Positions 3,771 to 48,590 of a stretch of DNA of 64,000 nucleotides are shown here, piece after piece. The DNA comes from Watersipora subatra (Eukaryota; Bryozoa; Gymnolaemata; Cheilostomatida; Watersiporidae). A model generated the notes under the pieces. It made no database searches, was not told the DNA's origin, and was given only the letters and a program-made list of their open reading frames with translations. Numbering within the stretch: the stretch's first letter is position 1; each line of letters opens with the position of its first letter. The DNA lies in the NCBI RefSeq assembly GCF_963576615.1, contig NC_088712.1:58092300-58156299 (forward strand), read 5' to 3'. Made by a program: the position numbers and the translations under genes.

Positions 3771-3947
3771 TGTAGTTAATTTTTGATTGACTTGATTTTC
3801 TTTTCAATGTTTTTAAAGGGTTTTTTGGAAGAGACAGTTGTGCATGTTGGGCTGTAAATCATCATAAGCAAGTTTTTTACTTATCATTTCACAATAATGC
3901 AAATCCTGGCAACGGCGGGTACCACAGCTAGCATTCTATAAAACATC

Positions 3948-4295
3948 TCTCTCCCCCTCTCTCCCCTCTTTCTCTCTCTCTCTTTCTCTCTTTCTCGCTC
4001 TTTCTCTTTCTTCTCCCTTTTCTTCTTTCTCTCTTTCTCGCTCTCTCTCTCCCCTCTCTCTCTCTCTCCCCTTCTCTCTCCTCTCTCTCTCTTTCTCTCT
4101 TTCTCGCTCTTTCTCTTTCCTCTCCCTTTTCTTCTTTCTCTCTTTCTCGCTCTCTCTTTCTCTCCCTCCCTTTCTCTCTCTCCCCTCTCTCTCTCTTTCT
4201 CTTTCTCGCTCTCTCTTTCTCTCCCCTCTCTCTCTCTCTTTTTCTCTCTCTTTCTCTCTCACTTTCTTTCCTTCCCTTTCTTCCTTTCTTACAGT
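3948..4295. repeat. Polypyrimidine/polypurine tract (CT-rich, about 350 bp)
   Basis: Almost pure C/T on the plus strand, made of CTCTCTTT and TCTCGCTC variants with an internal higher-order duplication (a block 'CTCTTTCTCGCTCTTTCTC' recurs). Such mirror-like tracts can adopt H-DNA. The 123-residue Arg/Glu/Lys frame on the minus strand is a composition artefact. Confidence 0.95.
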
Positions 4296-4310
4296 CACTC
4301 GTTTCAAAGA

Positions 4311-5335
4311 TGACCGTCTTACGGTTTAGGTTTCCTCAACAACTTCCATACATTTATGCTTTCCGCTTTCTCTTAAAAACTCTTTCATTCTATAAAATAC
4401 AGGAAGGCCAATAACAGCTCTCCACACTGTCTGTTAGAAAGAACCACTCAAATGGAACGTATGATGTAAATCTGATGACTTTGTATTAGAGTTTTCTAGA
4501 AACTTATACAATTTCCGGTGTATAATTGAGACCTCTTTGCGCCTGTTACAAAACTCTTCTGTTACCACAAGGAACAAACAACCTTTTAGTATGTGAAGCT
4601 TGCCTGTTCCTTCAAGGAAATGGAAGAGAATTTCAAAACAATTATTAATAAATTATCAGTAAAAAAATGCTGCATCATAGACCTGCTTTAGCTATTTTGA
4701 TCAACTTGCTTCTGCTGAAGACAGCTTGCAGAAATTTCTGCAGAAATTGTTGATTATGATACTTGTGTAGCGATGAATGTACATGTCAGAATCTAGGAGT
4801 GATGAGGCAACATGGTCGTATCTAAAAATGGCATATATGAGCTTTTGGAGCTTCCTAGCTGTCAGATATCTAACCAGGCATTTTGATAATTATAATGAAT
4901 GGCTGTAAAAATATTTTTAACGACCAAATGTAAAACATTATGTAAGACATATTTTGGCTATGACCTTCTAATCAAGATTGTGAAACCTGTTGATTCAAAG
5001 GATGCTAGAGGAGGTCATGTAATAAAATTTCAAGTGCTTGCCATGCGACAGGCAGAGTTTCAGCTATGCTACATCAACATGTTATAAAAGATAAAATTAT
5101 AATATATAAAAATATGCACATAAAATATAATATAAGCATGTATTTAGCCAAAGCTGCTCTTGTCCAAAAGGCTTCATCTCTGTCGCTTGTTGTGTTACAA
5201 TAAAACACAAATGCTGTAAACATTCTTGTTGCGAACACAGATATTAATGCTAAGCACGTGTTAAAATAAAATAGGTCGCTTTAATATATGTATATTAAAA
5301 CATATACATGTATATACACAACATATATTATATAC
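4311..5335. other. No gene recognised
   Basis: Non-repetitive AT-rich DNA. A 62-codon plus frame at 4899-5087 has no recognisable features. The right end runs into TATATACATG-type simple repeat. Confidence 0.55.
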
Positions 5336-13458: not shown

Positions 13459-16359
13459 CCATTCGAGTTTTCTAGGAACAGTGACCTCTCTACTCCAAGT
13501 ATAGATAGAGTTTGCCTTGCTTTTAGGTTTGATGACTGTCTACTATGATGCGATAAGTCTATGGAAGAAACTGGGCAGACCCATTGGGTTGGCTGACTTT
13601 ATTGTGCTGCTTGGAACAGTTAGTGTGGAAACAGCCTTTGCTCAACCAGGTAAAAGACTTTAGGTTTCTGTGAGTCAAAATTGATTTTAATATCTTGATA
13701 TATGCACACTTGGAGTTCGACCAGTGCAAATGAAATGGGGATTTTGTTACCTTGGTTTTAGGAGGGCCAGGAAGAAGACAACTTCCATTCAGAACTGGTC
13801 GTAGAAGCTGCTCGGATCCAATAAACTATAATCTAGATCACGTCTTTGCAATGGTATGTATTCAGTCTAGCATTTTAACCATAGAAATTTGAAAGCGTGA
13901 CAGAATTTAAAATCATTTAATCCAGTCAGCCTTTCAGCTCTAAATAGTCAAAATTATCAAAATATTTCTATTGCTTCATACATGTATATCAAAATTACTA
14001 ACCATTTTCTGGTAACATAATACTGAACCTATGTTTGTTGTCAGCTGAACAGAACCTTAATAATTTTTACATTTTAATGAAGTGTTTCATCAATTTTATG
14101 TATTGCAGGGTCAAAATACGGACTCAGTAGAATTCTTAATGGGTCAGTTTGGACTGACAAGAAAGCTTGCTATTGCTCTTTTGGGTAAGTGTGTGACGAA
14201 CAGAAATATTGTTACATTTGATGTTACAATTATTAGGCTGGCTTCAAACACGACTTTTATGGTAGTGAAGATTTAGACTAGCTCAAGTTACCAGCGTAAG
14301 TTACCAGCGTACGCTACTCAAATTCATTGTGTAATTATTTTATTACCTGTGCGACGCCGGCATTCAGGCAGTAGATAAAAAATGTACTCAAAAATTAACA
14401 TATATTACCAATAACCAGTATCTAAGTAGAACGTGAATGGAAAGAAAAATGTATCTGTGTTCTAAGCATATTATTTGCATAGTGTCACACTTTTTTGCTA
14501 TTAGGCTAGCACTGTCTAAAAAATCGACCAGATTATTTTTATACTAACTATTTGATTGCTTGACATAAGGAATAAAAATAAATCCATCGTGAATTTTGAA
14601 GTCAATAGATTATTATATTTATATCTTAAAGATTATCAGATCATATATGATCAGAATGACAATTGAAACTTGAGTATTTTATGAAGAGTTGTCATACACT
14701 GCCAGATATGATATTGCAGAATTTCCTTGTAATTGCAGGAGCTCATTCCTTGGGCAGATGCAACCCAGAAACGAGTGGTTTCTTTGGTCCCTGGGACAAC
14801 ACTCAACAGACTCTTGACAATGCGTACTACCTCGCACTGATGAATGGAAACTGGAGACTTGTCGATTCATCCAATGGGTAAAATCATCTATTTGACTGAG
14901 ATTTTTATAGCATAACAAACATGCAAGAAAAGTATTGTAAGCCTCTCTGCATACATTAGCTCTCATTTCATTAGATAAAGTTGGCTCCACTGTTCTGCTG
15001 CACATTAAAAATGTAATAACGCCAAATTGTAGTCGATTTTATCAAAAAGCGTAGATGTTCATTTATTATTTGTGATTGTTTTTGATGTTTGAGGTCATCT
15101 GACGCCAGGATGTTTGACGATTAAAAGCGACAAAAAATGATCGTGATCAAAACAACCAGCTGCAAGCTAGTTTGAATATGATGTATACGATTGAACTTCA
15201 GCAAAAAATCGACAGATCGGAGACACATAACACTGGAACTTGAACGCAATAGATATCAATAACAAGAGATGGGCAGCTATGATGATTGTGACATCAATAT
15301 GGCACTTATTTTTCTTCCGAGCGTTTAACCAAGTTCGTCAAATTTAATCTTGAAAAATCTTTACAGTCACACCAACACAAGCATCAAAAACTATCCCGAA
15401 TGTTAGAAAAACACCGGCACTTTTTGGAACATCTACTATAAGTCTTAGTAAGTTCATGTTTAATGCGAATTGAATGGTATTTCAGATTCACGCAGTGGAT
15501 AGATGGTGGTAAGATGATGCTGCATGCTGATATGACTTTGCTACGAAACCTTCGCATATCCAATGATGAAACACCGTCTTGCAGGCTTTCCAGCCAATGC
15601 CCTTTTAATAGAGCAAACAGCAGAAGGGTAAGAATTTATACAAAACAAGAGTTATCCTATTGAATTGAAAATATTATTGCCACCTGCTTTAGCAAGTTTC
15701 CACCTAATATCCATTCTCTTAGCTGAGAAAGGTATTTTAAGCATATTTGAAAAAACACTTATTTGATCTTATTGGCTATCAGTTGCCCTTTTTTATTCTA
15801 TGATTTTGTATGACATAATTTGCAAAACGTTTCTGTTTCGAAAGACATTATTGCCTATAAAGTACTATATATATATTACTATATAGGCAATAATATAAAT
15901 ATTTAAGTAATATAAATAAATATATATTACAGTAATATATATAATATATATTACTGTAATATATATTTAAACTATGCATATCATATGATTATATTTGCTG
16001 TAATATGCTACATATACATGTAAATATTGTATAACATATATACGTATATATAAAACTGTTTTCTCACCCCGGATACCCCGTGTGGGTGGTAATTTCTGCT
16101 CTAACTCGGGTCTCCTACCAGAGACCTGGTAGTTTGAGCAATCGCCTCATGATCCTAGCTGTTCCCAATAGCGCACTTATATATATATACATATATATAA
16201 CATATGTATATGCTACACAAAACCTTGCTAAGTAGATTGTTGCATCACATTGAAGTTCATCAGGTTGCAAATCTATTTTAGGTAGAAAACTATGCTCAGA
16301 ATCAAAATGTATGGGCAGACGACTTCGTGAGAGCATTTCTTAAAATGGTAGAGCATTGA
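8522..16359 (+). CDS. Secreted plant-type (class II-like) haem peroxidase, 11 exons, 342 aa
   Basis: Spliced from exons 8522-8533, 9086-9141, 9269-9384, 10578-10669, 11613-11715, 13527-13649, 13762-13853, 14109-14184, 14739-14877, 15486-15627 and 16282-16359. All ten introns are GT-AG, phases match, and the sum is 1029 nt including TGA. Residues 1-22 form a signal peptide (MNLKLILTGLLVMAAFIEIT...). Residues 23-56 are Arg-rich, followed by paired cysteines. The peroxidase fold follows: distal motif 'VRLVYHSCVG' (Arg102, His106), 'CDGCIN', 'GLADFIVLLGTVSVE', proximal 'GAHSLGRC' (His226) and 'MMLHADMTLLRNL' (Asp285). The end, 'NQNVWADDFVRAFLKMVEH', is a typical terminal helix. The family oxidises small organic substrates with hydrogen peroxide; the substrate here is unknown. 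Distal positions usually Phe/Trp and Asp are Tyr105 and Ser107. Introns hold SINE, LINE and (TA)n repeats. Family assignment and exon structure are very secure; expression is inferred. Confidence 0.94.
9890..10000 (-). repeat. tRNA-like SINE fragment in peroxidase intron 3
   Basis: Read on the minus strand, 'GCGCAGAAAGGCGGTTGATC' is followed about 45 bases later by a B-box-like 'GTGAGTTAAAACCC'. A similar 'GTTGTGAGTTTAAATCTTG' is on the plus strand near 10192. Both look like decayed tRNA-derived repeats. Confidence 0.4.
12671..12724. repeat. 27-bp tandem duplication in peroxidase intron 5
   Basis: Two copies of a unit beginning 'TTGAGTAGCGATGATCCAAC' differ at one base. This is a minor intronic duplication. 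Confidence 0.85.
13369..13457. repeat. (TA)n microsatellite in peroxidase intron 5
   Basis: About 44 uninterrupted TA dinucleotides lie 70 bp before the exon 6 acceptor. Expect length polymorphism and assembly uncertainty. Confidence 0.98.
16065..16190 (-). repeat. LINE 3'-terminal fragment in the last peroxidase intron
   Basis: This stretch matches 6635-6745: the same 'GGGTGGTAATTTCTGCTCTA' tail and, on the minus strand, the C-terminus 'ARIMRRLLKLPGLW' before a stop. It is an independent, strongly 5'-truncated copy of the LINE at 6640-7375, lying antisense to the host gene. Confidence 0.85.
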
Positions 16360-17716: not shown

Positions 17717-20698
17717 TTAGTTGTGAAATTGATAAAATGTTGTCATGGACCGACAGTGAAAAACGTCCGTAGCCTTGTCGCCTATTCTTAGCTCAAGTTC
17801 ATCATTTTGGTTATAGGGATCGATTACATCAGGCCATAGTATTCCGTCATACATACTGTCATAGCCGGTGTGGCTGGGAATCTCAGATGAGATAGTAGAT
17901 ATGCGAGTGTCAGGAAGATAGCCTGTAGCATTTGAAGGAGCTAGACCAACACGGTGAAGGTGAGTAATTTCCTGCTCACTATCAGAGATATGTTCACATT
18001 TCTTCTTCTCTCTCATGACAACTGAAGCTCCTGCTGCTTCAGGAAGAGAAGCTTCACCTGACGGCTTATCCTCAAAAACAGACGTATCCTCTGTACTACA
18101 GCTATCTTTAACCGGAGATGGTGCAGACAGTGGGGAAGGAGTTGCCTTCCCACTGTCTATTGAAGAGTCGTGCAGATCCCTGCCATATATATACATGTAT
18201 GTAATTCAGAGCCAAGTCTGCTATCTCTGACACATTACTAGAGAAACGATTAAACATCTGGAACCTTCCTAGTTATCATTTAAAAGGAAAGCAAAGAATA
18301 TCAACTCATTGACGAAATAGAGAGGTTTCCTACACTTTTTGCATTAAAAAGCATGGAGAAGACAACTACACATTTAAGAATTAGACACCAGCTTCTCAAC
18401 TTTTAAATGTAAACTGTGATTTAATGCTTGTGCTAGTAAGTGTTGACAGCACAATGAGACTGACACAAATTCAAACACGCCAGACAGAACTCTGGCTCTT
18501 GATGCACAGGCTAAAGATTTAGGGTTGTCCGATTGAGATAAATAAATGACAATCAATTTCTACTGAAACCAACACAGAAATGCTATAATAATAAAAAGTG
18601 TACTCATAAACCGAAAAAGACGCAGTAAAACGCTATTCGCTGCTATCATGCTAAACAGCAGTATATAACTGTGGCCAGAAAGAAAACTAACACGCAACAA
18701 ATTAAGATAAAAGAAGCATTCATTTAATGATTATAAAAAGGTTTACCTCAGATTCGACTCTACCTCACTCAGAGTTCTTCTAGGAGAGGTCTTTTTGTAG
18801 CTGTAGATATTGGAGCGTTTTCTGAAAATATATACATGTAGATATTATGTAAAGCAGCTAATATACTACAAACATGCAAACCAAACAGAATATGTTATAG
18901 CAGCCGATGGAATACTAGCACAAATAAATACATGTATATAGTAGTTGTTATGGCATTTGATGTATCATGACTGTGCAGACAGAGTATTTTATGGTATTTT
19001 ATAAACAATGAGTATGCAAACCAAATGTGTTATGGTATTTCATGTACATAAAATATACAAATGCACTGTATGTTATGGTATTTGCAAAAAAGGTTCTGCA
19101 TCTATATATTTAAAAAATGGAAATATTTTTATGATCTAAATTTTTCTTGTAAAACCTAGTTTAGCGATGATGTGAGATAAATATTCGATGAACAGATACT
19201 TTCAAAATGATAGGCCATTGTATTTTCAATAAAGAGCAAGTTCTTTTTAACTTGTTTGATATATTCAGTAAAAATTAAATTATTTTGCTGAGAAATAAAA
19301 TATTTGTTATTTATATATATTTATTGTCATAAATAAAACCAATAAATATTTGCTGGAAAATTAGCAATTTTCAGAATACAAGAAGTATAAGCATTGACCG
19401 AATAGCATTTGCATTATTACATTGCTTTATCAAAAGAACTGATATTTAGAAGCCATAAGTATAATAGTCAACAAAACCATAAGTGTGTTGCTGATTAGTT
19501 TTGCTCTGAAGGGCTACTGTTACGCAATAGTGTTGTACAACTGCCGAGTTTTTTGACTTATTCCAGCAAAGCTCAACAAAACTTCAATTTGTGGGTTACT
19601 CACACAAATTAAAAAAAACCGAACTGACCGGGTGGCAGCTGCATTCCTTTATATGCTATTCAAAAAAGAGAGCTTTCCAGAACATCACAAGATGTAAGCC
19701 AGAATCTAATTTTTAAGATTCTAGCCGCTTTTGCATGGTGATTTGGGAAAAAAACACACTGATTGCGTGATACAACAATTTACTCATTAACGATAGTACA
19801 GTTCTATCCAGTAACTCAAAGCTGGTACACACTATATGACTGTATCTTGGTTTTCATTTTACAGTTCTTCTGTGATCGTCTGTGATAATATTGTTCACAC
19901 TATCACAAACCTATCGACACCTTTATCAACGATGTAGTGTTCTCATTTTTCTTTTTAATTGTTCTGGAACGAAACTCTTTATTACTGTGTGCTCGAGTCA
20001 AATGCTAGTCTCGCAGCAGCTATCATAAATGAAACTAGATTAAGCTATTAGCGAACCACCATCACTAAAATGGTGCGCATCGTACAGACTGTCATAAATG
20101 CTCAGCAAACTTTCAAGAAAGTTTGACTGCTGCAAACTTTTCTGATGTTACATCGTCCATTGCGTCGGTTTACGGTGCACAAGACAATGCATGCTGAGAG
20201 GACAACTCCAACATACGGTGATATAGCGCGAACCAGCTGTGAGGAGCAGACAGGATAAGATATCGTATTATATATACTATATTATATGTAATGTATATAC
20301 ATGATGTATAATATACATATTATATCTATAATAAATATGTCATCATATTTCATGATGATATATATATATATATAACTAACTAGAGTGTGGAATAGGTTAA
20401 TTTTACTTATCTTTATTCCAGATTGATGTTTTATTCTGGGGTCACGACAGGTCTGTTTCGTGCTGGTGCACTCTTCAGGTGACTTGTGTTAAATATTTGT
20501 GTGGTGACTTATATATTCAACACAAGTCACCTGAAGAGTGCACCAGCACGAAACAGACCTGTCGTGACCCCAGAATAAAACATCAATCTGGAATAAAGAT
20601 AAGTAAAATTAACCTATTCCACACTCTAATTAGTTATAACACTCCGCACTTTTTAGAGCGTAGAGTGCTGTTAGCAGTAGGCCTGACAACTTATCTAT

Positions 20699-20729
<31 letters not shown>

Positions 20730-21314
20730 TACATGTTATCTTGCAAATACTTGACAAGCTGTGATATGTAAGGTGAGACCTTCGACTAAAAGGTTGCAAG
20801 AATTACATAACTCCTTATTTTTTATTTATTGCGCTATTGCCAAGAGTCGAAAACTCCTAAACCAAAATGCTAAATTGTTGGTTGACTTTTGAACAGTTAA
20901 ACTAAACGTAAACTATTAACATTAATCGCATATAATCAATATATAGCATCTACTATACAGCAAAATAGTTAGATATTAAAATTTTAATATTAAAACTAAA
21001 ATTGAATATGTTTCCATTGATGTTCAACCAAACGTTGGAAAACATGGCAAAATAAAAATTAAGCCATGCTGAATGCAGCAGTGGCTAGTTAGACAAGCAG
21101 AACAGCTTACAGTACCTCGTTGTTTGTAGTAACATAAAAATAATCTCGGTATAGCGCTACCATTACACAAACCTGATCTTGCAATACCAGATTGCAATGG
21201 CCAGAAGTGAAGCTAAAAGAATTCCTGCACCAACAACTGAAAGGGTGATGGCTAGTTTACCGACTTCTGTTAAAGGAACAGCATCCATTTCCGCTAAAAC
21301 AGCCACTCGTAACT
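17717..21314 (-). CDS. Single-pass membrane protein, last three exons (5' end not found)
   Basis: Minus-strand exons 21314-21173, 18821-18747 and 18179-17717 join in phase across two GT-AG introns. Exon one gives a short juxtamembrane ectodomain and a hydrophobic helix ('LAITLSVVGAGILLASLLAI', then 'AIWYCKIRKRS'), whose basic flank marks the cytosolic side. Exon two is a basic linker ending 'TLSEVESNL'. Exon three is a 153-residue Ser/Pro/Glu-rich tail with 'DLHDSSIDSGKATPSP', 'KKKCEHISDSEQEI' and several Tyr in acidic context ('HTGYDSMYDG'), plausible phosphorylation sites. The ectodomain must lie in exons further up the minus strand that I could not locate with confidence. I cannot name the family; a receptor or adhesion protein tail is a reasonable inference only. 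Confidence 0.75.
20441..20483 (-). ncRNA. Hammerhead ribozyme, type I (left arm of palindrome)
   Basis: This is the reverse-complement copy of the motif at 20526-20568, with identical core, stems and GUC cleavage site, read on the minus strand. Both strands of the locus therefore specify the same ribozyme. An RNA spanning both arms would instead form a long duplex. Confidence 0.85.
20526..20568 (+). ncRNA. Hammerhead ribozyme, type I (right arm of palindrome)
   Basis: All core elements are in order: stem I strand GTCAC; CTGAAGA (the core allows any base at position 7); stem II GTGC-ACCA-GCAC; GAA; stem III ACA-GACC-TGT; cleavage site GUC; stem I strand GTGAC, which pairs exactly with the first. 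The fold follows directly from the sequence, and the family consensus is well established. Confidence 0.85.
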
Positions 21315-21319
21315 CTGCA

Positions 21320-24080
21320 AAACACGTGTCAATGAACTACGCTAAATGAAAAAGATATCAAAAAGCACTGTTTCATAACCATAAAGCAGATATCGCTGAC
21401 AGATAGAAGTTTAGACAGACTTGAGAGGTCTGAAACAGCAACAGGACAGAAGTAAGGAAAATATACAGAAACTCAAAAATAGAAACGAAATGAATTCAAA
21501 CTTGCGTTGCAAAATGAGATATGATGAGTGGTTGGAGTTATGAAAGAACCATGTAAGCCTAATGAGCCAATGAGAGTGTTGGTAATGTTCAATAAATCAG
21601 AAAAATCAATAAGGGCAATTGACCTAACAAATTGACAAAAAAGTAGTAAAATGATTTTTTGTAAAATAAAGTAGTGATTAGAAGGAAAGGGAATGGCTCA
21701 ATAAAAAAACTATAATCTTTTTCTAGGCAATTACAAAGAACATATAGAGAAATGGTCACTTGTGTAAGTTTAAAACACTTCTTTGCCTATCTGGCTTGAC
21801 AAAGAGGTACAGAAAAATATAAAGTTGAGATAAAAACTGCAAAGAATGGACTGCTTACAAAAAGCAGCGAAATTTTGTCACAAATCTCATTAATCTTTCA
21901 CTACCGCATTAAATTCTGCCCGAACGATTATTCTGCCTAAATTAATTCAAACAGATTTTTCGAAAAAGCGACATACCGCTAGTATTTAAGTAATATATCA
22001 ATAATTAAAACGTATATCGTTTTAGTGTAAAATTCATCTTATTCAGATTAGAAAATGATTAATAGGGTCGATAACACATTGGCTTAGTTACGGCCAAACT
22101 ATAAACATTAGAAAGCATTAGCGATAAAAATATAAAAAAGTTAGATATAACATGGAAAATACATATTATAAGAGTGATTATATGCAAAATTGATCTCGGT
22201 TAAAACGTTCAGAAAAAAAAGATGTCTTTTTTCTGAGCGTCTCAACCGCGATGAAGTTTTGCCAATTTTAATCTGAAAACGTCCTGGCAGTCACATCAGC
22301 TAAAACAAAAAACAAATCTCAAGTGATAGAAAAATATCTATACTTTCTGATAAAAACTTTTAAAACTTTGCTTGTGAGGTCCTTTAACTTGCAACAAGCA
22401 ATCTATGCTTTTGATTTATATATAGTTTGTATATGTACATGTATCTACTGATAAATACATGCATTTGAGACAGCGCTCTGATACCTTGAACGCTCTAGTA
22501 ACTCAAACACATTCGCTCGGTCCCGTGAAGTTTGATTTATCTATGTTTGACTGCATGTAGAAGAGCAAGTTAGATCCAATTAAACCTGATTACGCGTGGA
22601 TCATAAGATCGGTGATCCTAATAAATGTAAGTAGAAATCAGTATAGTAGAGATAAAGTTGAGCTATAGAACATGAAGCCTTGACCAAATATATAATGATA
22701 ACAATGGATGGACAAAAAAGTTCAGAATGAAAACCAAACAGAATGAATAGAGGAAGTTCATCCTTAAATAAAAGCTGATAATGAAAGTTGGAAGCATGCA
22801 GACTTAGGAGACCCAAAATTTTTAAAGGCGGATAAAGCCGTTAAGGCAGTTATCTGTCTGGCTGATGATGACACATGTTGTTTGGGTTTGTGATTATATT
22901 ACATAATTCGAAACACAATAAATATTGAGTTTTAAAATTTGGGGTGTCTGAACCTATGTGCTAGCAAGCAGTACTGTCAGAGATGTTACAACACAACGCT
23001 TTAAGAATGTAACTGCAAGGGTAAGTAAAATGTGATATTTATTTTCTGCGTTTTATGAGAAACTCAATAGATCAATAGGATTTTTTGTGTGATCTAAACA
23101 AAAATTTACATTGAGAAAAAATGATCTAGCTAACATATGAAACTTTTCCCATGCTTTTATAGCCAGAATATGTTAGGCGCATCCTGAGTATATGTTGATA
23201 AAGATAAATCTGTCCTCCAACATGGTAATCGAATGATCAGAACAGGTGCTATTGTAGGCAATGTCAACACCAAAGCGCAAAGAAACCAATTTCGGCAACG
23301 CATGCGTTGATATATCTTATAGTATTTAGCCATTTGCACCTTCTAAATATATACTCATGATGCCTCCAAGATCTTTCTTTTGTGTCTTCCTTTTTGTATC
23401 TGTCCAGTTTAATACTTGTATTGATATCTATGAGCAATCTTAATCTGGTAGTCAATAGTCATATTTTACAACATGTTTTCCACAAGGTACCACATTGATA
23501 CAACTAGTCTTATTATACTTTTTGTTGTCGCAGTAATCTTTTCGTTTTCATTTTGACTTTTGATTTATTTATTTATGTAGCCTACATAACATTTTAGTAA
23601 CCACTAGTAACCTAAAGACATTGAGTGTCGTTTGCGACCCAATAAAGCAGAAAGTTTGTAGTCTCAAAAAATCAGTTTTTCCCAAAAGCGAGAAATTGTA
23701 TATTGTAACCGAAATAAATATATCAGTGATGTGACAGTCCATCGATCATTGATCATTCGGTACCCAGAACTTCAAACTTACAGATATCCACAACATACAT
23801 AACCATAAAGCGTGAGCAGTAACTAATAAAGCCTAATTTACGGGTCAAGGTTATTATAGCCTTAGGCCGTGTTTTAAAATATGAATCAGCATTAGAGATC
23901 GATCTTGTTTTGGTTTAAATATCAAGCAAGACGTGTATAATAAAATATTGTTCTGGAATAAAAAATGAAACAAACAAAATTTCAATATGCAGTGTTAAAA
24001 TAAAAATCACTTTAATCTGTGATGCATTTACCGATAAACAAGCGGGCTTCTAGCTGGATTATAAAAAATAGCTAAACTAC
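21320..24080. other. Probable intron or upstream region of the minus-strand membrane gene; one dispersed repeat
   Basis: Contains another copy of the 'CTGAAAACGTCCTGGCAG' dispersed repeat at about 22250-22400. Several 60-70 codon minus frames (22601-22816, 23157-23339) are hydrophobic AT-driven frames without splice support. Confidence 0.45.
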
Positions 24081-25553: not shown

Positions 25554-27175
25554 CTATCTTAAATTGAACATTCCCAGGTTCACTCTGAAGGTAGTTCTAC
25601 TGCGAACACGTGCGGTTCCACCAGTTGTAATGGGTTCTCCGAGCTGCATTACTACATCGGACAACTTCACGTCTTGCTGGTCTTGGACTTTTGGATATGT
25701 AAACGAAGAGAACAAGTCATTTGTTTTTCGCATGAAGTTAACGGTTGCGGTTCGCGGATCTACCATCTTCATAACTCTCCCAGTGTAGAAAACCTCAGTG
25801 CCTTGCTCCGTACGGTATTGAACGAGCACATGACAATTGACATCAATGTTTTCTTTATTCTGTGCGGTGTCATCTAGGTCACTCGCTTCCTCTTCTGATT
25901 CTAAGAGCTCCTCTGCAAGTTCCTCATCGTTGCTCGATGACTCGTCAACAACTGCAACGATAGGTTTAGTTTTTTTGGAAACTTTCTTTTTCATCACTGT
26001 TACCCTTGAAGTTGTTTTCCGCTTACTTGCTCTTAGTAACACCTCTTCCCTCAGCTTTTTTTTCTCTGGAGTGTCAGTGAGAATGGCTGAACGAGCTTTT
26101 TTCCTTTGCTGCGTTCCTGGTTTCTGCAGTCCGGCTTCAGGAAATGGTAACACTTGTTCAGGTGTGACAGAGCTAGTAGGTGCTTGGCTTTTCTCGGCAG
26201 GTGTGCTAGAGATTTTAGATGGCTGGTTCTGCTCAATGGGTCTGCTAGAGCTTGTAGACGGATGATTCTGCTCAGCGGGTCTGCTAGAGCTTGTAGATGG
26301 GTGGTTCTGCTCAGCGGGTCTGCTAGAGCTTGTGGATGGATAGTTCTGCTCAGCGGGTCTGCTAGAGCTTGTGGATGGCGGGTTTTCACTGACAGACGTC
26401 TCGTCATGACTAAGCATTTCAGTTTCTAACACACCCTCTAGCGGCCGGTCAGTTGTGGCTGATGGTAGGAGCTCGTGGTCTTAAAACACATCTGAATCAA
26501 TTGGCCAAATTCCTGTGGAACTAAACCCTGAGATGATGTTGGCAGGGACCATACTCTTCAAGAAGGCTATCCCACCGAGAGCGCCGACATGGTATATTGT
26601 GATGCCTTCCCCTGGCCTCATCCTCAGCTGATCAACCATAGCCTTGTTGAAGTATGTTTTGAGTGGACCAAAGACAGTACGGTCCAAAGGCTGGAGCCTG
26701 TGAGAGCAATGCGGAGGTAGGGTGAGGAGGACAGTACCTGAGGTGCTGCACATATCGACAGCCTCCAAGGAAACATGCGAACTATGATTGTCCAAAATTA
26801 ATAGGACAGGTTTTTCAGGTGTGCATCGAGTTAAGTTCTTAAAGAAGGGTAGAGATTCGTTGACAAACAAATCACTGTTCATGTACCCCGACGGCACAGC
26901 ACATCCTTTTGATCCAGGCAGAGTTCCATTCATGAAGCACATCTTCATATTCTTTCTTGGAAAAATAAAAAACGGTGGGATGTAGGTGCCTGCAGCGTTT
27001 ATGGCGCAGCACATCGTGCTCAGTTGTCCCCGCTCCTGTGATGACGTGGCACCAACTTGCTTTTTTCTGCGACTGCTCACAACCCTTCCCGGATTTTGCA
27101 CTGTTGTTTCCCAGTCTCGTCTAGATTAAAGATGTTTTCTGCGCCGAAATGATGCCTAAACAAGAATCACATTCA
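25554..27175 (-). pseudogene. pogo/Tigger-type (jerky-like) DDE transposase pseudogene
   Basis: Catalytic-domain motifs in order: 'IFNLDETG' (first Asp, about 27130), 'VVSSRRKKQVGATSS', 'PVLLILDNHSSH' (second Asp), 'LTLPPHCSHRLQPLDRTVFG' (third Asp, 35 residues on) and 'GFSSTGIWPIDSDVF'. A premature TAA at 26481 interrupts the frame, which resumes in phase as a C-terminal region. That region has four 13-residue repeats (PSTSSSRPAEQN type), a basic/acidic linker, and an end domain containing 'DVNCHVLVQYRTEQG' and 'VNFMRKTNDLFSSFTYPKV', typical of jerky-like transposases. A 1-nt shift just after the first Asp separates it from the rest. The N-terminal HTH/CENPB region is missing or too diverged to see. 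The copy is inactive but not old. Confidence 0.88.
26195..26395 (-). repeat. 39-bp coding tandem repeat inside the transposase tail
   Basis: About four to five copies of a 39-bp unit encode 'RPAEQNHPSTSSS'. The repeats stay in frame and differ by a few bases. Confidence 0.9.
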
Positions 27176-43923: not shown

Positions 43924-45301
43924 ATTGCTACACCTGGTTTTGAACATGATCGATGTTAGGCCAATGTAACTTTCGGTCGAATTGTTGGATCTGATAGTGG
44001 CCTGATAAATAATATTACTAGCCATGCAGTCACCGCCCAATGGGCAATCGGCTTTGGTTCTACAGTTGCACGTTTTTATGGTTGCATTTTCAATTGGTGT
44101 TTGTTGTTTGTTTAGTAGCTTGCTGTTGTGGCTGTTTATGATGGAAGCAACGTTCGGCATGCAGCTGTAGCTCAGTTTGATGGTATTGCGGTTGAATATT
44201 TTCTTTTAAACAGATTGATCATTAAATTCTCTGTCTAAAATTCTAAAGAATCTTTTTCCGATGTAAATGGCCAAAGTACTGCTGTACGGGGATTGAACCA
44301 GGTGATGTTCCGGCGTCTAGTGGTTGTGTCCTGCTTTGGTGTTCTAGGTTGGAATGTCAATATGTGTTTATGTAGACTTTCTTTGAGGGCTGCTTGGTAC
44401 ATTGGAGTTGCTTCTTTGAATACTGATTGGTCGGAAGAGATGTTGGACAGCCCTAGATTGATTGATATAGGTATATTTTGCGGGATCTGCGGGGGATGGT
44501 TAGACAGGTGGTGGACATACAGTGGCTTGTTGTTAGGCTTTATATACGGTCTATATTTGCTATCTTTAAGATTCAGGGTAAGATCTAAAAAGTTTGCTAC
44601 TTTTAGGTTTGCTTCTACTGTGATCGCTAGCTTGTTAGCTTTGAAGATATTACACAGCTTTTTCTTGATGTTATCTATATCTCTAGGGGTCTCGCTAATA
44701 ATCTTATATAGCCCGTAATTTCCTTTTATCTGTTTTTTAATTTGACTAAGCAGAAATAATCCTATAATTTCACACGTTTCAGCTCCATCGTAGCTTCCCA
44801 TTGTTACATCAAATGATAAATTTCCCTTTTTGTCCCACGGTTTATTGTCATGCACCAGTATAGAAGATTTGGCATGTAATATAATTTTTTTATCTTCAGT
44901 TGAGATGGATGTATATTGGCACGCAAAGTCTAGCGCTGCTACTAACAGTTCTTTAGTAATCGATGGATAAAATTCCACCATGTCAAACATCACAAAACTA
45001 TGATATTTCTTGTTGTTGATGTTATTAAACCACTGTAGTACTGAATTAGTGTTCTGCCACAGGTTAGCATCGGTTCCTATCTTTACTTGGTGGATGATGT
45101 TCTCAAGCAGGAAACTTAGAGCACTTTTATAGACAACATGACCATAAATAATTCTTTTGTATATATATATATATGATAAATATATATACATATATACATA
45201 CAGTAGATGCAGTATGAACAGTCTCTTGCATGAAAGTGCTCAATATTAAAATAGAGCGATGTAAAATTGGGTAAAAATGAAAGTTAAAGTTAAGTTTAAA
45301 A

Positions 45302-45461: not shown

Positions 45462-45518
45462 CAACTTCATTACTATTAGTTTCATGTCTGTTACGCAGAC
45501 AATCATCAGATAAAATTG
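45462..45518 (-). ncRNA. Hammerhead ribozyme (Penelope flank, A1)
   Basis: Minus strand: CAATTTTAT, CTGATGA, stem II TGTCTG-CGTAA-CAGACA (6 perfect pairs), GAAAC, loop TAATA, cleavage site GTA, then ATGAAGTTG. The last nine bases pair with the first nine (two G-U). All conserved core bases are present. It lies between the two Penelope copies. Confidence 0.88.
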
Positions 45519-45576: not shown

Positions 45577-46965
45577 CTATGTAATTGCATTTCGTAGTGT
45601 GTATTTAGCAGAATGTCGGCATGTGGAAGCTAGCTCGTTACGCTTGTTGAGTGAGCTCGTTTCTGGTTTTGTGAAGATGATGTACTTTTCTGATATGCAC
45701 AGGTTACAACGCTTGGTGGCTGGATCGTATGGCCTTGCGTGTTGAACGATTTTCCATTTAATTGTATACGGTGTGTTCAGGCCTTTTAGCTGCCAGATGT
45801 AGTTACTAAGCTCTGTGGCAGATTGCTTGTCCTGGTGCCTGAAAGATGATATGTGGCCGCTGAATCGTGTCTTAAAGGTATTTTCTGTGAGGCCAATATA
45901 ACTTTCTGTAGGTTTGCTACCGTCATTTGCGGTGACTACAGCTTGGTAAATGAGCGACTTGCTAAGACAGTTTCCTTCGAGAGGGCATTCATTTGGTGCG
46001 CGACAGTTGCATGTTTTGTTGTTTGCTGGGTGCGTTGAGGCGTTGTTCAAAAGCTTCTTATTGTGATTGTTGATGGTTTGTTTGATGTTAGGCATGCAGC
46101 TGTAGCCAATCTTTGTGTTGTTTCTATTAAATAGCTTTCTTAGAGGGTGATTGCTCGGAAAAGATTTATTTAATATTTTGATGAATGTCTGACCGATGTT
46201 ATTTGCCACGTTTCTGCTGTATGGTGGGTTGAACCATGTGATTTTTCTTCGTCGCCTGTGTTGTTTAGTTGGTGCAGTGGTCTCATGGGGTGTGAATTTC
46301 AGCTGGTGTGTATATCCGCTTGTTGTCAATGCCTGCTGGTACGGTGGTGCTGCTCGGTTGAACTCATTAGCATCGGATGAGTTTGCTGATAGTCGGTGGT
46401 TGATTGCTTGAGGTAGCTGCTTTATAATGCAGGGTGGGTGGTTGGATTGAGTGTGGATGTATGACGGGATGTTATTGGGTTTGTTGCACGGTGAGTATTT
46501 CCCAGTTGTTAGGTCGAAGGTGACGTCTAGGAAGTGTGTCACTTTTTTGTTGGTTTCGGCTGTGATGTTTAGTCCGTGCTTCTTGAATATAAGGCAGAGG
46601 TCTTTTTTTAGTTTTTCGGCTTGGCGGGGTGTAGATCCTGTTACTGCTAAACCGTCATCTCTATACAGTCCTAGGTTGATGCTGTGTTTTTCAGTGATCT
46701 CGTGTAGTAAGAATGAGCCAATTAATTCGCACGTTTCTGCTCCGTCGTAACTCCCCATTGTCCCGTCAAAATGGGAGTTTTCTCCCTTTTTGCCCCACGT
46801 TGTATTTCCGTTGAATAACACTGATTGTTTGGTGTGCATGATGATGCCTGTGTCCTCAGGTGTAATGTTATCGTAGTTTGATGCAAATTTCAATGCTGAT
46901 TGGAGGAGTTCGGCTGAGATAGAGGGGTAGAAATTGTCTACGTCAAACTCTATAGAGATAGCTCT
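45577..46965 (-). pseudogene. Penelope-like element, copy A: RT C-terminal half plus GIY-YIG endonuclease
   Basis: The frame is open from about 46965 to the stop at 45577, starting at RT motif A ('FDVDNFYPSISAELL', partly upstream of the first ATG). Then come 'DGTMGSYDGAETCELIG', catalytic 'GLYRDDGLAVTG', 'HFLDVTFDL', the linker 'RRRRKITWFNP', zinc cluster 'CNCRAPNECPLEGNC', GIY-YIG-type 'ESYIGLTENTFKTRFSGHIS' and 'CNLCISEKYIIF'. The 5' part is missing: it runs straight into unrelated AT-rich DNA. From motif A to the end I see no stop or frameshift, so this is the better preserved and younger copy. Role: target-primed retrotransposition of Penelope elements. Confidence 0.92.
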
Positions 46966-46974
46966 ATAAAGATA

Positions 46975-48590
46975 GCAATAAATATATATATATACCCATA
47001 TTTCTTGAGTTGAGAGTTGAATGTATACTTGTTGAGAGGTTTCCGAATAAAGGGACTAAGAGTTAACACAAATATATAAGGTTAAGCCTCCTACATGGTG
47101 TGTTTTATTCATATGGTAGATATATATACATTAACCTTCCAATTACGATATATTTTTGACGGAAATTTTAGAAGAATATGTTATCATATGTATTCATCAA
47201 CTTATCATATTTTACATATACATGCATATTAAAAAAACTGTCAAACCCTGGACATTGTCTAGAAGGTTATTGTAAGTTGCATGTCACTTTGAAGGTAACC
47301 CTAATATACATGTATATCTCAATTTGTACGCAAAAATAATGATTACTAATTAGGAGGTTGCTATAAATTAGACAAATTAGAATTTTACTATTGTAATATA
47401 TGCATCAGAACATTGCATAACTTACATAACCTTTAGAAACTTTTATATCATTTGGGAAGTTGCTATAACTTATTTATTTGTTATTATAACTTATACAGCT
47501 ATAATTTATATACCATTCAGAAAGTTGCATGTAACTATATACTTTATATCTCATAACGATATAACTTGTACATATGTAAGAAGTTATTTAACTTATAATA
47601 TATTTTCAAGAGGTCCCCATGATGTATACAGTGTACATCCTTTAAAAGGGTTGCATAAGTTATGTACTATGTTAGGAAGGTAGCATAACTTGCGCACATC
47701 AGCTAAGAGGCCATAAAACCATGTTCTCCTTTAACAACGCCTACGCCTAGTGACTTCTCTGACTTTTGACATGTCACAAAAGTAAAAAATCATCTAAAAA
47801 CAGTTACAACATTTTACAATATGAGGTACTATATTTTGTGCCTATTGGTACGAGTTGTGGGCAGACTTGCCTCTATTGCACATTTCCGTGTATTGTTTTT
47901 TTTTTTCAAAAGACTTAATTGTTGTTAAAACCTAAATATTGTATAATATATTAAACTTTGCAGTAGGGTGCAATAAGTAGATACATAAAACAACAACTGT
48001 CACTATGTTTGATACTAAAAAAACTCAATTAGTTGAGTACCAAAGAATTGATGTTGCTTAGTCGCCAAACGGAGTAAATTTAATCCGACATCAACTTTAA
48101 TGCGATATCACAAAAGCGTCAAAAACATAAAAAATCTGCAGCCTTATTAATTTTGAAGCTTCCTTGAGCAAGTTGTGGGCTCGGACGTAAATCATCATTA
48201 TAATTTTAAAACTCCACAGTTTTTAATAGTATCTTACTCTGACATTGTTGGTAGTTTACCTAAATTTTCTGACCATGGCTTTTTGAACTCTCCAATTTCT
48301 TTTAAGCTGTATCACTTTCTGCTGACTAAAATAAAAAAAATGTAACTCATTATTTATAAATATATCTGTTATAGTTTCTGATTCAGTCACATATCACTGC
48401 TGCTCTGCCTACAAAATTTAAATACGCTAGTTGAAAACAATGCATGGACACAACTCAGTTACTGTTATTGTTAAAATGAAACACACATTTTTTCTCCTTG
48501 CTGCGCATTTGTATCTACAGTAATAATATAAATTACTTGCACAACATACTACTTAGTTACTCAATCTAACCTACAATAACAGCAATGTTC
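46975..48590. other. No gene recognised; fragments of a short degenerate repeat
   Basis: AT-rich. Between about 47240 and 47720 short phrases on the theme 'GAAGTTGCATAACTTRTA' recur at irregular 50-90 bp spacing, an old, strongly diverged tandem array. Confidence 0.45.

Follow-up and report, generated by a model that had tools for sequence, protein, structure and literature searches.

Hammerhead-bearing palindromes of Watersipora subatra as probable pLTR-only insertions of a Penelope-like element

We describe a near-perfect palindrome carrying a type I hammerhead sequence on each strand, found in a 64,000-nucleotide stretch of the genome of the bryozoan Watersipora subatra (the whole of which is referred to here as the window), and trace it to a family of dozens of similar insertions. 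On the evidence of sequence comparison, the palindrome appears to be a short insertion product of a young Penelope-like element (PLE), consisting only of the pseudo-LTRs (pLTRs) of that element, with no separate palindromic element involved. The arms are inverted pLTRs, and therefore a type I hammerhead lies on either strand. We consider it probable that such a palindrome is a pLTR-only insertion of an endonuclease-type PLE, for which one sense RNA was reverse transcribed twice, from opposite target strands, and the two cDNAs were joined.

Structure of the window palindrome

The palindrome reported at 20371-20638 in the original prediction was recovered as an inverted repeat with 126-nt arms (20371-20496 and 20513-20638; 98% complementary, two mismatches, 16 nt between them), and counting it with 120-nt arms reproduces the one mismatch and the 28-bp spacer first described. 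The insertion itself extends to 20702, beyond that interval, because a 64-nt tail is part of it. Positions within the arms follow a numbering taken from one observed unit of the source element, in which +1 is the A of ATTCAACACAAG and the ribozyme cut falls between +49 and +50. With outer ends at +124 on the left and +188 on the right, the window copy is a 332-bp insertion, composed as follows.

20355-20370, no strand: (TA)n target flank, left (sequence and flanks of sister copies)
20371-20494, minus strand (sense): left arm, PLE pLTR, from unit +124 (outer, 20371) to +1 (inner, 20494) (arm alignment)
20440-20484, minus strand: type I hammerhead of the left arm, predicted cut between 20446 and 20445 (RF00163, 22.0 bits; unit numbering)
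20495-20514, no strand: 20-nt junction filler between the two cDNA ends, including GGTGACTT, which is shared with the arm (junction table)
20515-20638, plus strand (sense): right arm, PLE pLTR, unit +1 to +124 (arm alignment)
20525-20569, plus strand: type I hammerhead of the right arm, predicted cut between 20563 and 20564, unit +49 and +50 (RF00163, 22.0 bits; unit numbering)
20639-20702, plus strand: PLE tail (unit +125 to +188), confined to one side, with its outer end at 20702 (arm alignment)
20703-20729, no strand: (TA)n target flank, right (sequence and arm alignment)

The predicted RNA fold of the insert (20371-20702) has a free energy of -234.8 kcal/mol, against -73.7 for shuffled sequences (z -29), and takes the form of a long hairpin in place of the hammerhead fold. 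The competition between hairpin and ribozyme folding that had been foreseen is thus settled in silico in favor of the hairpin, so that a transcript of the entire palindrome is not expected to form the ribozyme.

The sequence makes the original placement of the palindrome, in an intron of a host membrane-protein gene, plausible: a minus-strand, transmembrane-like ORF (21163-21336), followed by AG/GTTTGT, lies nearby, and a Pfam search of this ORF matched no family. Elsewhere in the window, we noted a pogo-like DDE_1 transposase fragment (26484-27125, minus strand, E 1.6e-14), a long GA/CT-rich low-complexity tract with several open frames (3884-4414), and a plus-strand ORF (14660-14881) that contains the stretch AGAHSLGRCNPETSGFFGPW, which we take to be a heme-peroxidase-like motif; this ORF had no Pfam match at E 0.01.

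Hammerhead sequences in the arms

Both arms contain the series CTGAAGA, GTGC/GCAC, GAAA, ACA/TGT, GTC and GTCAC/GTGAC, in keeping with the complete type I hammerhead that had been proposed for each; its activity is predicted. The full length of the Rfam Hammerhead_1 model (RF00163) aligned with each arm, scoring 22 bits (E 0.006; curated cut-off, 34), and an Rfam scan of the whole window at gathering level returned no match, the hammerhead included. In the relaxed Rfam scan, microRNA families outranked the hammerhead on account of the long hairpin, which is no evidence of a microRNA.

Genome-wide, the 44-nt ribozyme was found with up to 3 mismatches in 327 copies (173 + 154), against 0 for the reversed pattern, and a search by exact pattern yielded 35 short palindromes with arms reaching at least +5, against 1 in the control; for these reasons the ribozyme palindrome is not a product of chance. 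Across 20 variants, all young copies of one family, the 12 base pairs of the hammerhead were paired in 96% of cases, compared with 10-51% for slid controls. Because the copies are young, covariation is weak, with one stem II pair altered on both sides in 2 of the 20 variants. Stem III comprises 3 bp.

A hammerhead within the pLTR is a feature expected of endonuclease-type PLEs, and it appears to be present here. According to passages of PMC7761336 and PMC6155905, PLE hammerheads are minimal and usually lack helix III nucleotides; the minimal type I hammerheads of PLEs were described by Cervera and de la Pena 2014 and Luense 2017, as cited in PMC7761336 and PMC7229834. The arms analyzed here share the minimal type I hammerhead located in pLTRs and differ from those accounts, so far as they could be compared, in having the 3-bp stem III and in the existence of insertions that end at the cut. 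The ORF of the source element (L057, 2520-4712, minus strand) ends in RHSTQVT, and the TGA that terminates it also forms part of the hammerhead CTGA core, so that coding and ribozyme sequences overlap.

The source element

The original prediction had proposed searching the host genome for further copies of the arm. In the assembly (783.7 Mb, 239 contigs), a search with the 120-nt arm produced at least 60 matches, with 40 of 609 candidates scored, and at least 42 of these were 100% identical over the full 120 nt. Membership of the arms in a repeat family is thus read directly from the genome. At two loci, L057 and L058, the arm is found at each junction between tandem units of exactly 2400 bp, and the unit carries an intact 730-aa ORF with the stretches GLYRDDG, TLKDHKPNF..CRLINP and CNC..C..C and, at the C-terminus, STYIGL..FKSRFRNH..ELSKHIW. 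We take GLYRDDG and STYIGL..FKSRFRNH to be the reverse transcriptase and GIY-YIG motifs of PLEs; in endonuclease-type PLEs, a single ORF is expected to encode a telomerase-like RT followed by a GIY-YIG endonuclease at the C-terminus. Searches of this protein against PDB and NCBIfam gave no match up to E 10, and the only Pfam match was PMC2NT at E 3.5, under its cut-off. The architecture, namely tandem units, pLTRs, inverted pLTRs, a one-sided tail and AT-rich targets, independently supports the assignment to PLEs, and the combination of pLTRs with tandem or partial-tandem units that marks endonuclease-type PLEs can be recognized at both loci. The suggestion that the palindrome belongs to a mobile, ribozyme-bearing repeat akin to the terminal repeats of Penelope elements is accordingly borne out by the ribozyme copies and the tandem, ORF-bearing units.

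Among 100 listed of the 327 ribozymes, neighbors closer than 5 kb were oriented head-to-head in 25 cases, tail-to-tail in 0 and in the same direction in 3, these three being spaced exactly 2400 bp apart; the distance within ribozyme pairs, among the matches listed, ranged from 63 to 3972 bp. Three ribozymes in the same orientation, about 22 kb apart (C4:2679417, 2701175, 2723638), perhaps represent a larger tandem duplication.

This arrangement bears on the kinship with retrozymes that had also been suggested, under which the palindrome would be an inverted form of an animal retrozyme, a retroelement with a circular ribozyme RNA. Animal retrozymes, as described in part of PMC7229834, likewise carry a type I hammerhead in a retroelement, and the many copies found here would suit such an origin; they are, by the same source, non-autonomous and linked to circular RNAs, whereas the palindromes are inverted pLTRs whose parent PLE carries an ORF and repeats in tandem every 2400 bp. 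Moreover, no same-direction neighbors closer than 2400 bp occur among the 100 listed ribozymes, and the arms end at +1 or +50 and at +124 or +188, not from cut to cut. We regard a retrozyme origin as extremely unlikely: in place of ORF-less direct tandem repeats, the copies are inverted and tied to an ORF-bearing element, and the suggested kinship was abandoned.

The window also contains PLE-related sequence away from the palindrome. A minus-strand ORF (45577-47055) is 53% identical to the ORF of L057 over 455 aligned columns, and its single-sequence AlphaFold model had a pLDDT of 35. A second Penelope-like ORF (44235-45239, minus strand) has an alignment gap at the DD of YRDD. Close to these ORFs, four minus-strand motifs of the form CTGA[T/C]GA - hairpin - GAAAC (near 45509, 45347, 42303 and 42172) are possibly minimal or decayed PLE hammerheads; Rfam scoring matched none of the four sites. 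A similar motif was seen in the flank of L090/L091.

Coupling of the outer ends

The outer ends of the aligned arms, numbering 137 (141 in all, minus 4 internal ends at +212), fell at +124 in 67 cases and at +188 in 60, with the other 10 between 107 and 191. After 133 of the 141 ends, at least 12 of the next 14 nt were A or T, and target-site duplications are indistinguishable inside (TA)n; endonuclease-type PLEs are expected to have AT-rich targets and a short duplication of the target site. These (TA)n targets often seem to adjoin copies of another repeat; the flanks of L008, L022, L026, L034, L058 and others include many that are 90-97% alike.

The two ends are coupled. Of 52 scored inverted pairs, 47 had the ends 124/188, and the others were 122/188, 116/188, 114/188, 124/186 and L026, whose outer ends are 124/188 with an inner tandem arm present. 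Eleven further loci follow the 124/188 rule, which is common to short palindromes and to inverted pairs of up to about 4 kb. After removal of four duplicated insertions, all 59 independent inverted pairs with two scored arms, counted among the fetched loci, combined an end near +124 (range 114-124) with one near +188 (range 186-188), and no 188/188 pair occurred among them.

Left out of the 52 pairs were duplicate entries for the same place (L027, L030, L033, L038, L041), three loci overlapping L026 (L005-L007) and the compound locus L053, which is 124/124 and an exception to the rule, along with seven palindrome loci in which one arm was too short or too diverged (L029, L035, L036, L039, L040, L047, L056). 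When these seven were rechecked, L029 alone fitted 124/188, one of its arms being damaged. The ends of the diverged L035 are about 124/126, and each of the remaining five has one or both arms ending at +24 to +40; the second arms of L036 and L039 (+25 and +24) are 24-25 nt long and lie directly against (TA)n. The shortened arms could be either later deletions or other start points, and those of L036 and L039 either later deletions or a third kind of end. The genome may hold further exceptions, since the scored loci are part of the copies. Inverted pLTRs with an optional tail on one side, a form expected of endonuclease-type PLEs, are thus apparent in this family, with six of the seven rechecked loci and L053 departing from the clean pattern.

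Inner ends and junctions

The 35 short palindromes reduce to 33 when two pairs sharing rare junctions are counted once each. Of the 66 arms at 33 tabulated junctions, 41 reach all the way to +1. The base following a complete +1 end was C in 13 of 27 cases (P 0.008), or 15 of 29 when the duplicate L043 is included; a templated base would be G, which was seen in 4 of 29. The extra C beside +1 ends resembles cap copying, as moderate evidence for a capped end. Junctions of this class often read TTGAATTCAA, an AATT overlap.

A second class of inner end emerged from an anchor intended as a control. The anchor at +67 to +79 retrieved 7 palindromes whose junction reads GGGGT[C/G]ACCCC or differs from it only slightly; in each of them, one or both arms start at +50, the exact hammerhead cut. 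The junction is that expected from two cDNA 3' ends GGGGTCAC overlapping by GTCAC, with a central mismatch. Nine independent +50 loci were identified (L085, L086, L088, L089, L090, L092, L093, L094, L095), including the complex L085, where both arms start at +50 with an extra partial copy between them. A match at C4:19523892 (L097) was rejected as a chance match, and L084 (arms at about +50 and +33) and L087 (+28 and +47) belong to neither class. The control anchor at +26 to +38 retrieved 0 palindromes and that at +85 to +97 retrieved 1; the latter sees only the A type at +93 (37 of 52 pairs) because it spans this variable site. From the positions of the +50 ends, we infer that the ribozyme probably cleaves the element RNA in vivo.

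Longer pairs (e.g., L015, L024, L025, L059, L063) extend past +1 into the upstream unit and join elsewhere, and most loci differ in both the sequence and the length of the junction. This diversity is difficult to reconcile with palindromes that are themselves mobile, as MITE-like elements, foldback transposons or palindromic RNAs copied whole, and have spread from a few masters. Such spread would account for the many copies, the near-identical arms and the (TA) at both ends; however, inverted pairs as long as 0.6-4 kb obey the same end rule, a source is at hand in the PLE, and no transposase ORF was seen in L024 or L026. A MITE or foldback DNA transposon would move a whole conserved unit, whereas here the junctions vary and the ribozyme spacing ranges as widely as given above. 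Mobility of the palindromes as such is, in our assessment, very unlikely.

Evidence for one RNA per insertion

Two variable sites mark the RNA from which each arm derives, and the concordance of their alleles can be counted directly. At +80 (T, C and G in 31, 18 and 3 pairs, respectively) and at +93 (A and C in 37 and 15 pairs), the two arms agreed in 52 of 52 pairs, two of them duplicates, compared with about 48% and 59%, respectively, under random pairing. Elsewhere the arms differ at 0 to 8 sites per pair, the CpG at +35/+36 being affected in 3 and 5 pairs, which we read as later decay. No pair with one +1 and one +50 end was found by the exact mixed pattern, against about 14 expected (P 3e-8). 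Because the marker alleles agree throughout and mixed pairs are missing, the likeliest origin of the arms is a single RNA, or else two RNAs that share both a locus and a 5' end. Some of the allelic agreement could also be due to gene conversion between the arms.

The same observations weigh against two separate RNA molecules, one copied on each target strand and the products then joined. This alternative explains the loop-free junctions and the two primed ends, and a protein dimer has been predicted for a published PLE, according to part of PMC11167929; it nevertheless conflicts with the full concordance at +80 and with the lack of mixed +1/+50 pairs, and we judge it rather unlikely. It would still be possible if both RNAs always came from one locus and were alike in processing.

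Fold-back self-priming, in which the 3' end of one strand folds back and primes its own copy to give a head-to-head palindrome, accounts equally for identical arms and shared alleles. It was proposed for bdelloid Penelopes, with an antisense template favored, by reasoning from palindromes at inverted junctions (PMC3846280, consulted in part). Nonetheless, loop-free junctions (TTGAATTCAA, GGATCC, GAAATTTC, GGGGT[C/G]ACCCC) are unexpected from a hairpin primer, and a copied arm should often retain the tail, whereas 188/188 pairs number 0 of 59. Self-priming on an antisense template meets the further difficulty that inner ends at the hammerhead cut fit a sense RNA: at this position, a template of antisense polarity contains no hammerhead. 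Overall, fold-back self-priming seems distinctly unlikely.

Discussion

Double reverse transcription of a single sense RNA thus remains the preferred reading, and its steps would be as follows. The 5' end of the element RNA would lie at unit +1 (ATTCAAC) or close to it, a short way upstream of the hammerhead, and part of the RNA molecules would cleave themselves between +49 and +50. The RNP would open both strands of a (TA)n tract, and a single RNA would be copied twice, the cDNA on one target strand starting at +188 and that on the other at +124, with both cDNAs extending to the RNA 5' end. The cDNA 3' ends would be joined by microhomology (AATT for +1, GTCAC with GTCAC for +50) or by short fillers, sometimes derived from the arm, as the window filler with its arm-derived GGTGACTT would exemplify, and the outcome would be a head-to-head palindrome with a 64-nt tail at one side. 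If the cDNAs stop at the RNA 5' end, a unit-length RNA would yield only a pLTR stub, and ORF-bearing copies would require RNA reading in from an upstream tandem unit. The enzymology of this route and the role of +1 as the transcription start are what we infer from the finished insertions.

The sequence UUAUA is found at the end of both start sites, and (TA)n is identical on the two strands, which may aid priming from two strands on one RNA; because of this likeness between start sites and target, the end positions are uncertain by a few bases. When the 230-nt leader was folded, no clear cause for the two start sites emerged (z -1.7). Extending the proposal to the group, we lean very slightly towards the view that PLEs integrate by symmetric double reverse transcription of a single RNA, the strands obligatorily beginning at different start sites, that the hammerhead would cut germ-line RNA and set the 5' end of a sizeable minority of templates, and that the pLTR would be what lies between the RNA 5' end and the start site.

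Several elements of this picture are already published, namely inverted pLTRs, a one-sided tail, palindromic junctions, hammerheads in pLTRs, extension of both strands and two start sites. In the portions of PMC3846280 that we compared, the endonuclease-containing Penelope retrotransposons of Adineta vaga have inverted head-to-head pLTRs with a tail at one side, and they share with the element described here the pLTRs, partial tandems and adjacent head-to-head inverted pLTRs as well as the optional tail on one pLTR, the palindromic inverted junctions and the AT-rich targets. The tail measures 31 bp in Pen2a_Av of A. vaga and 64 nt here; copy number is low in A. vaga, compared with dozens of pLTR-only palindromes here; and, unlike those elements as presented there, this one has a hammerhead in each arm and two discrete classes of inner end. 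The palindromic form, originally put forward as undescribed, is therefore known in PLEs as far as the inverted pLTRs and one-sided tail are concerned. In the open-license PMC papers searched, no report was found of the use of each start site once per insertion, of allele concordance between arms or of insertions ending at the hammerhead cut.

The closest biochemical parallel comes from Poseidon of Anolis carolinensis (PAc), as reported in sections of PMC11167929: the purified PLE protein cuts and extends both target strands, and its reverse transcription starts at two adjacent internal RNA sites that bound the genomic tail. These properties, together with tandem units, a hammerhead near the ORF start and AT-rich targets, are shared with the element in W. 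subatra. The start sites of PAc lie within the ORF and lack homology to the target, whereas those described here precede the ORF and both end in UUAUA; the same sections note no reads starting at the ribozyme cut, and cleavage dispensable in vitro, in contrast to the existence of +50 ends here. Beyond what is given there for PAc, each of the two sites is used here once, on opposite sides of one insertion.

The route of PLE insertion, the template strand and the in vivo role of the hammerhead are described as open in the relevant parts of PMC3846280, PMC11167929 and PMC7761336. With dozens of minimal, near-identical insertions, these questions become counts of start-site pairing, of shared RNA and of template 5' ends, and the approach is applicable to any other genome that harbors young PLEs. 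The coupling of ends helps to distinguish self-priming from two-strand priming, and the ends at the exact hammerhead cut are the first lead that we found for self-cleaved PLE RNA serving as a template. If this reading is true, the genome would store a readable archive of ribozyme cleavage.
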